Of a stretch of 35,853 bases of DNA, positions 18,629 through 18,916 are shown in pieces. Position 1 is the first letter of the stretch. Each line of letters starts with the position of its first letter. Under the pieces are notes generated by a model. It saw only the letters and a program-made list of their open reading frames with translations, was not told the origin of the DNA and made no database searches. The stretch is from Clostridia bacterium (lineage in GTDB: Bacteria; Bacillota; Clostridia; Oscillospirales; Acutalibacteraceae). Position numbers and translations under genes: made by a program. The stretch covers positions 1-35,853 of the forward strand of contig JAFQCT010000021.1 in NCBI GenBank assembly GCA_017399405.1, given 5' to 3'.

Positions 18629-18840
18629 TGGAGCTGCTAACCGGATTTGACCGTCTGCTTCGGCTACGCCTCGCATACTGACTGGCTCGGCGACCCAAAT
18701 TTTTATAAATTTCGGTACCCGCCTCACCACTCTGTGCTAAAAACAATTCGCCGAATTGTTTTTTAACGCACAGACCCAAGGGTTCAAATCCGTAATTATA
18801 AATAAAAACACAGAAATCCCAAAAGAGATTCCTGTGTTTT
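18629..18840 (-). repeat. Structured tRNA-3'-end repeat, copy B (tRNA-Thr)
   Basis: A 212-base segment between two perfect 22-base direct copies of the tRNA-Thr 3' end (18629-18650 and 18841-18862). The core (about 18651-18793) aligns with copy A along its whole length. Stems differ in sequence but stay paired: AAATTT/AAATTT closing TTAT; CAATTCG/CGAATTG; TCTGTGC/GCACAGA (TTTTTGC/GCAAAAA in copy A); GGCG/CGCC unchanged. The tRNA-proximal end carries GGTTCAAATCCG in inverse orientation. This is an exact copy of the tRNA-Thr T-arm and can pair with the duplicated T-arm at 18640-18652. No ORF. Compare copy A at 1851. Confidence 0.88.
18803..18840 (-). terminator. tRNA-Thr terminator (inside repeat copy B)
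   Basis: On the minus strand, directly after the encoded CCA, AAAAACACAG / CTGTGTTTTT with further inner pairing is followed by T-rich sequence. It matches in position, but not in sequence, the terminator between tRNA-Leu and repeat copy A. Confidence 0.8.
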
Positions 18841-18916
18841 TGGAGCTGCTAACCGGATTTGAACCGGTGACCTCGTCCTTACCAAGGACGTGCTCTACCA
18901 CCTGAGCCATAGCAGC
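18841..18916 (-). tRNA. tRNA-Thr (anticodon GGT)
   Basis: Minus strand: acceptor GCTGCTA/TAGCAGC, D-arm GCTCAGGTGGTAGAGC, anticodon stem CGTCC/GGACG with loop TTGGTAA (anticodon GGT at 18881-18883), variable loop AGGTC, T-arm ACCGG-TTCAAAT-CCGGT, discriminator T, encoded CCA at 18841-18843. Reads ACC and ACU. It is monocistronic, and its 3' 22 bases are duplicated at 18629-18650. Confidence 0.98.

Follow-up and report, generated by a model that had tools for sequence, protein, structure and literature searches.

The two tRNA-associated repeats in the window (the whole 35,853-nucleotide stretch of Clostridia DNA that was analysed) belong to a family of small folded elements lying at the 3' ends of tRNA genes, and both ends of these elements generally follow the gene beside them. 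One folded core occurs 3' of tRNAs of a dozen isotypes and of tmRNA, each time with a direct and an inverted arm that suit the gene, and its conserved hairpin is also present at rpsI. The family accounts for the repeated tRNA ends in these gut Clostridia genomes. We see about an even chance that they are site-specific mobile mini-cassettes, ORF-less and about 145-215 bp long, which occupy tyrosine-integrase sites and would be moved in trans by a recombinase step that we infer from their targets and ends.

Both window copies lie on the minus strand and have the same order of parts: next to the host gene stands a proximal terminator-like hairpin, T1; then comes D', in which the T-arm is copied in inverted orientation; the core, about 130 nt long, follows; and beyond it tRNA positions 55-76 are repeated directly (D) before a distal terminator, T2. 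In copy B the host is tRNA-Thr(GGT), at 18841..18916 (ARAGORN, Rfam tRNA), whose positions 55-76 form the proximal direct repeat. T1, a terminator-like hairpin beginning at the gene end plus an AT-rich spacer, connects the gene to the element (18793..18840). The 5' arm D' (18781..18792) is an inverted host T-arm (CGGATTTGAACC), reading GGTTCAAATCCG at these positions, and its assignment agrees with the host tracking seen across the family. The structured core with helices P2-P7 (18651..18780), defined by folding and covariation, contains the conserved hairpins AAAACAAT..ATTGTTTTTAGC, GGCGGGTACC..GGGTCGCC and GTATGC..GCAGACGG. The 3' tail D (18629..18650; TCAAATCCGGTTAGCAGCTCCA) is identical to tRNA-Thr 55-76 at 22 of 22 positions, and T2 (18598..18628) resembles a hairpin 3' of tRNA-Thr in the element-free genomes G015 and G028. 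Copy A follows tRNA-Leu(GAG) (2066..2149, ARAGORN) and consists of T1 (2015..2065, its hairpin again beginning at the gene end), D' (2003..2014; GGAACTTGAACC), the core (1873..2002, from fold and covariation), D (1851..1872, matching tRNA-Leu 55-76 at 21 of 22 positions) and T2 (1812..1850), a similar terminator being found directly 3' of tRNA-Leu in the element-free G028 and G001. The earlier note had described copy B correctly, including its inverted arm, its repeat spacing of 212 and a core that aligns with that of copy A, 16.8 kb away; the equal length of 212 bp that it gave to both holds for copy B, while the spacing in copy A is 215. Two other repeats were seen in the window: a GGGACGCTG..CACAGCGTCCCG hairpin at 7661-7708 and 11111-11158 (77% identical), unrelated to the elements, and a 22-nt inverted repeat at 25573-25594 and 25772-25793 (95% complementary, 177 nt apart).

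A third copy, copy C, is present in the same genome at tRNA-Pro(GGG). A covariance model built from copies A, B and C was searched under strict filters against this genome, where it gave seven matches, and against 148 related genomes, where it matched in 55, namely 35 of the 40 from the same genus and 20 of the 108 others. The 125 distinct matches, from 37 genomes, follow one plan (gene 3' end, terminator, inverted T-arm, folded core, copy of tRNA 55-76), one being a bare hairpin and another cut by a contig end. The 80 named loci among 90 stretches with the conserved hairpin are all titled uncultured or metagenome-assembled Clostridia-type, many of them from the ruminant gut. A recent duplication of one tRNA with its spacer would give two window loci with a common core and layout. 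However, their tRNA isotypes differ, as do their ends, terminators and arms, and this number of matches in 37 genomes also speaks against it. The isotype table thus disposes of this explanation, which the earlier note had kept in view, and we give it virtually no chance.

In 25 of the 125 matches no same-strand tRNA was detected within 900 bp upstream. Seventeen such loci were read, and several proved to lie 3' of a tRNA or tmRNA end and some 3' of masked bases; in L018, L058 and L088 no clear gene end was recognised upstream. A large autonomous parent was considered and dropped, as none of these 17 loci showed a unit containing a gene. A phage or plasmid origin was likewise discarded after a distant blastn search of copy B in phages and plasmids gave no match; three exact patterns gave no hits in viral_contigs, a result that says little about diverged copies. 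In Rfam no family scored above its gathering threshold over the element in the window and 12 loci, and for copy B at E values up to 10 only tRNA came near one. Gut-1 RNA (RF01706), a structured RNA family of gut bacteria, lies directly 3' of two elements (L303:647-721 and L018:1379-1448, both minus strand), as a separate sequence outside the element. In the open-licence literature no work on such an element was found.

Host matching was measured on 79 of the 125 copies, from 32 genomes, which lie within 140 bp 3' of a detected same-strand tRNA; copies further down arrays or with no detected tRNA were left out. They span 12 amino acids (Leu, Ser, Gln, Pro, Arg, Glu, Lys, Trp, Thr, Val, Gly and Ala). 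When tRNAs for other amino acids are compared, 74 of the 79 distal tails agree strictly best with their own tRNA (with one tie), and 42 match it without a mismatch across 19 nt. The inverted T-arm (17 nt) is looser: its own tRNA is strictly best in 25 copies and tied in 18, and in 36 another amino acid fits better, with a mean match of 13.8 against 11.1. Chance is excluded as an explanation, since neither the tail nor the arm match was reached in any of 500 shuffles. The arm was then divided in the 74 copies that a simple pattern could parse, the few misparsed ones being scored as misses. The host is matched by the three loop-adjacent bases on the side paired with the tail in 51 of 74 (shuffled mean 18.6, maximum 30), by the variable loop bases in 66 (24.9, 35) and by the three bases on the side unpaired with the tail in 61 (25.8, 37). 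As a rule, therefore, the arm follows the host over the entire T-arm. Among the exceptions, the arms of both Thr copies read CCC where the host predicts CCG, and copy C has a perfect Pro tail together with an inverted arm that fits its own tRNA-Pro at 10 of 17 positions, Leu at 12 and Trp at 13; the idea that this arm is Leu-like was dropped because Trp fits slightly better. The rule that element ends follow the target, as first put forward, thus holds firmly for the tails and more loosely for the arms, and tabulating host isotype against both ends gives host-matched ends in 12 unrelated isotypes. Several tRNA genes in G034 (L046, L095, L100) and G027 (L031, L076) do not encode CCA, unlike many in their genus mates.

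A difference of this kind between tails and arms could arise by target copying, in which a transposition event duplicates the 22-bp target (55-76) and the inverted arm is refitted at once or later, so that only the core travels. Copy C, with its perfect Pro tail, misfitting arm and a core 86% identical to that of copy A, would be such a case, since it is absent at the tRNA-Pro of five relatives, and the tendency of T1 to stay with the isotype points the same way. Against this, the arm part that is unpaired with the tail follows the host in those 61 of 74 copies, which would need copying or long coevolution; moreover, the same junction holds cassettes with non-host tails, no transposase was seen, and the elements fit integrase subsites. 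We regard target copying as improbable, and slightly more so because the arm of copy C does not point to a Leu donor.

Occupancy varies among relatives at the same gene. At tRNA-Thr, where 30 loci were fetched and 17 genomes were readable by pattern, the element is present in two (its own genome and G004) and lacking in 15, including the close relatives G015 and G028; the comparison of T1 and T2 there is ambiguous as to the limits of the unit. At tRNA-Leu(GAG) the site is occupied in G000, G004, G021, G025, G060 and G061, an element begins in G026 and is cut by the contig end, other folded variants stand in G009, G011 and G030, a remnant is left in G015, and G028, G001, G017, G031 and G013, for example, are element-free. 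As T2 at this gene resembles the native terminator of the empty relatives, the inserted unit here probably comprised 55-76, T1, D' and the core. Of 13 tRNA-Pro(GGG) loci compared, only that of its own genome has the copy C core; G031, G021, G017, G001 and G002 lack it, the G036 locus is cut off by the contig edge, and in G035 the same plan is built around a different core. The variants at Leu(GAG) in G009, G011 and G030 and at Pro(GGG) in G035 (L188, L189, L202, L214) show the same arrangement of arms around cores of other families. In G029 (L186) the tRNA end is simply repeated, and nearly the same terminator was seen 3' of different tRNAs, Leu and Pro, in L185/L209 of G021 and in L183 (G028) against L212 (G017).

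Cores are also shared between isotypes. Of 124 copies, 33 have their nearest core neighbour in another isotype (20 across genomes, 13 within one genome) and 50 in the same isotype, with 41 undetermined, and one core subfamily with support 1.0 joins Gln, Pro, Arg, Leu, Lys and Trp copies across six genomes. In the 75 first copies the clustering of T1 goes with isotype (18, compared with 3.2 in shuffles) but not with genome (5, compared with 2.0 and a maximum of 10 in shuffles). Both halves of the core cluster by isotype and by genome: 20 against 2.7 and 19 against 2.0 for the right half, 17 against 2.9 and 11 against 1.9 for the left. Therefore the core moves or is homogenised between isotypes within a genome, while T1 stays at its locus. 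Within genomes, 12 pairs of cores more than 80% identical belong to different amino acids; the T-loop is shared in seven of them and different in five, compared with 20 of 95 shared among all pairs (hypergeometric P 0.003, for pairs that are not independent). The nearest-neighbour version of this T-loop test was not significant, being reached by 112 of 1000 shuffles, and a strict overlap rule, with core exchange only between equal T-loops, was set aside as a trend only.

The core is a folded structure. Compared with 200 shuffles, the fold gave z scores of -4.23 for copy B and -3.89 for copy A. In 122 distinct aligned rows 92.8% of the cells pair, and for 49 of the 53 pairs there are rows in which both partners have changed; covariation scores 0.422, compared with 0.139 when shuffled and no more than 0.067 when slid, on an alignment that was fitted to the model. 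In the closing helix, P1, D' pairs with the first tail bases, and in P2 the remainder of D' pairs with a GGGT-like piece of the core. Together P1 and P2 rebuild the host T-arm duplex, from which the core protrudes at the boundary of positions 54 and 55, the starting point of the direct copy. Folded as single sequences, copy B takes the T-arm-duplex form and copies A and C favour other end pairings. The core subfamilies vary in the helix next to the junction.

A multi-helix fold with covariation is what would be expected of a functional non-coding RNA, whose transcribed core would carry arms that mimic or bind the host T-arm, the match being kept by selection or gene conversion. The tRNA-Leu(TAG) copy common to G000, G031 and G013 would also fit a conserved function, and so count against mobile cassettes, as G000 and G031 differ there at one of 154 bases in surroundings whose 1.2 kb of flank aligns at 85%. 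In addition, no copy was seen reversed relative to its neighbouring tRNA, the 79 analysed copies lying on the tRNA strand by selection. When Watson-Crick, G-U and A-C cells of P3-P7 are counted, G-U (96 of 3,932, two columns giving 42 of the 96) exceeds A-C (23), as a strand-specific RNA would show. Yet the tRNA stems at the same loci are far richer in G-U, with 32 of 423 and one A-C in acceptor stems and 21 of 185 and one A-C in T stems. Core pairing is thus strand-specific yet stricter than that of true RNA. A promoter of its own preceding the arm was rejected, as -10 boxes before the arm are not enriched (28 of 113, against 37.8 in shuffles). As G-U pairs are scarcer than in tRNA stems and -10 boxes show no enrichment, we lean, though not firmly, towards an element that acts as a folded DNA strand rather than as RNA. 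The hairpin strand lying antisense to the gene at rpsI, the patchy occupancy of the same tRNA among relatives and the existence of non-tRNA hosts likewise weigh against an RNA, which we consider unlikely, if slightly less so than target copying.

Other targets of the family extend beyond the T loop. The full element also lies 3' of confirmed tmRNA genes (L025, L098). In the T-loop class the direct copy begins at position 55; in an anticodon type (e.g. L251, L312) the conserved hairpin lies at the anticodon region with a longer inverted copy, as in L251, L259, L297 and L308 (Thr) and L312 (Pro). It also occurs at tRNA-Gln with an inverted copy of the acceptor and T-arm. In six loci (L250, L286, L291, L299, L304, L314) the hairpin stands beside an rpsI end sequence; Pfam Ribosomal_S9 was found in both tested loci (L250, L314), an S9 C-terminus was recognised by eye in L286, L299 and L304, and L291 has the repeated rpsI end only. 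Six other repeat-borne hairpins (L242, L249, L260, L268, L269, L294) had no tRNA detected within 1.5 kb upstream on the hairpin strand. In L251 the inverted copy spans the 3' half of the tRNA and forms, with the half itself and the terminator, a single long palindrome, such as snap-back replication at the terminator palindrome would leave on creating an inverted copy of the tRNA end. The spacers of the 79 T-loop copies, however, contain no inverted trace of the acceptor stem (330 matches, 336 expected, sd 6.3). A fold-back origin of the T-loop class was rejected on this ground, and snap-back replication is very improbable in general.

According to the available text of PMC4383910, tyrosine integrases directed to tRNA genes cross over at subsites in the anticodon loop, in the T loop or at the junction of T and acceptor arms, and tmRNA is among the enriched targets; that of PMC5704250 lists the rpsI 3' end as a tyrosine-integrase target. 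The places used by the elements (T loop, anticodon region, tmRNA and the rpsI 3' end) are thus all attachment places of tyrosine integrases. According to the same part of PMC4383910, elements that enter tRNA genes normally carry and restore the 3' end, leaving a displaced fragment. The earlier claim that tyrosine-integrase sites could not explain target-specific ends therefore fails, as such islands carry the tRNA end with them and the elements sit at known subsites; these sites alone do not explain the inverted copy or the spread of similar cores between isotypes. Integrases were found beside elements and none inside these short units. In G033 tRNA-Leu(GAG) and an element are separated by an island of about 8.6 kb, which encodes a 395-aa phage integrase next to the element (ORF L327:687-1874; PF00589, E 2e-24). 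The genome of the window has eight PF00589 matches, and on its contig 19 an ORF with such a match ends about 400 bp before a Lys-type element. Displaced tRNA ends were recognised by eye before the elements in L016, L071, L078 and L096; the protein that neighbours the L096 element is a Fic protein rather than an integrase. The analysis linked no recombinase to the elements and showed no excised circle.

The genome G034 (3 contigs, 99% complete) contains a second cassette, of 143-144 bp, in arrays at tRNA-Pro (twice), tRNA-Val and the tRNA-Trp end, its copies sharing 132-143 identities per pair. Its junction is constant, between the core-terminal G and TCAAGTCC, and its tail continues with non-tRNA sequence that has no host match; at Trp the host tail TCAAGTCCTTCTGCCCC comes after the cassette. 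The left-end sequence occurs six times in G034 (with at most three mismatches), always in the Pro, Val and Trp arrays, and is absent from G027. Thus the junction is reused, and host matching is lacking where no tRNA needs restoring. This cassette is the strongest support for site-specific recombination and also the strongest limit on the rule of host-matched ends. Fixed ends that ignore the host, which the earlier note had set against its rule, do exist in these inner cassettes and, in part, in the arm of copy C, beside the large majority of tails that fit their own tRNA best. As the tail is unmatched here, the need to restore the gene, identity at the crossover and folding would explain most of the host matching.

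On the whole, the most economical mechanism is that of a mini-element with attachment sites at its flanks, on which tyrosine recombinases act in trans. A recombinase acting in trans, probably from islands that use the same T-loop sites, would recombine the element with the tRNA gene, the substrate being either the folded strand or the corresponding duplex site. The substrate is likely to be the folded strand, and we infer the recombinase, the excised form and the strand used. The ends would follow the host for three reasons: the crossover would require similar T-loop bases, the piece joined to the tRNA would have to restore the acceptor end, and the inverted arm would have to remain complementary in order to fold. 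Cores could then pass from one isotype to another when copies recombine with each other and when insertion takes place at T-loop sequences that isotypes share. Among the observations that count against such mobile cassettes, T-loop overlap identity is not strictly kept, and some family hairpins lie where no tRNA was detected nearby. Since five of the 12 close pairs of cores have different T-loops, gene conversion or a target-copying step would be needed in addition. Indeed, as T1 clusters by isotype and cores also by genome, much of the spread may be due to gene conversion of cores.

Among known systems, MITEs and REP/BIME sequences are small non-coding hairpin repeats whose ends are fixed to a transposase. 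The elements are likewise small, non-coding, repeated, hairpin-forming and apparently non-autonomous, but unlike MITEs they have no fixed terminal inverted repeats, and their arms vary with the host. CIMEs, which together with accretion are defined in the available text of PMC5704250 and described there as decayed ICEs or IMEs, resemble them in having an att-like copy at both ends, in lacking integrase and transfer genes and in forming a tandem, at one tRNA, with an island that bears an integrase, as in G033 at Leu, or with an integrase beside the Lys-type end on contig 19. The elements differ from CIMEs, as far as that text describes them, in a small uniform folded core in more than 100 places, an extra inverted att copy and spread across isotypes; no gene fits inside the unit, whether or not it arose by decay. 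Islander-class tRNA and tmRNA islands, as described in the available part of PMC4383910, similarly restore the gene, leave a displaced 3' fragment in direct orientation (compare the 74 of 79 tails that fit their own tRNA best) and use T-loop, anticodon-loop and tmRNA targets. The elements, unlike the islands described there, have no integrase or cargo, possess an inverted target copy and place the same core behind many isotypes.

It is possible, and we suggest it tentatively, that the T-arms serve as the entry site of an integron-like process without an integron, in which ORF-less cassettes would fold into a copy of the target duplex and be inserted by a resident tyrosine integrase, the arms being re-fitted for each target so that specificity would change without any change of protein. 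Integron cassettes are short and arrayed, a single strand folding by covarying inverted repeats and being inserted at one junction, with the attC core-site consensus GTTRRRY/RYYYAAC. The elements resemble them in their short units in arrays, their folded strand with covarying arms and their single-junction insertion. They differ in lacking this consensus (their junctions, judged by eye, place a G before TCAAGTCC or before TCGAATCC, for example), an intI or attI tied to them and any ORF, and in that the folded arms are host-gene sequence. Elements that use tRNA genes are thought to keep one target, attachment site and integrase evolving together. If the folding model is true, a short arm sequence could reprogram the choice of site, and single-strand recombination as known from integrons would extend beyond them; the family supplies precise DNA substrates for testing this.
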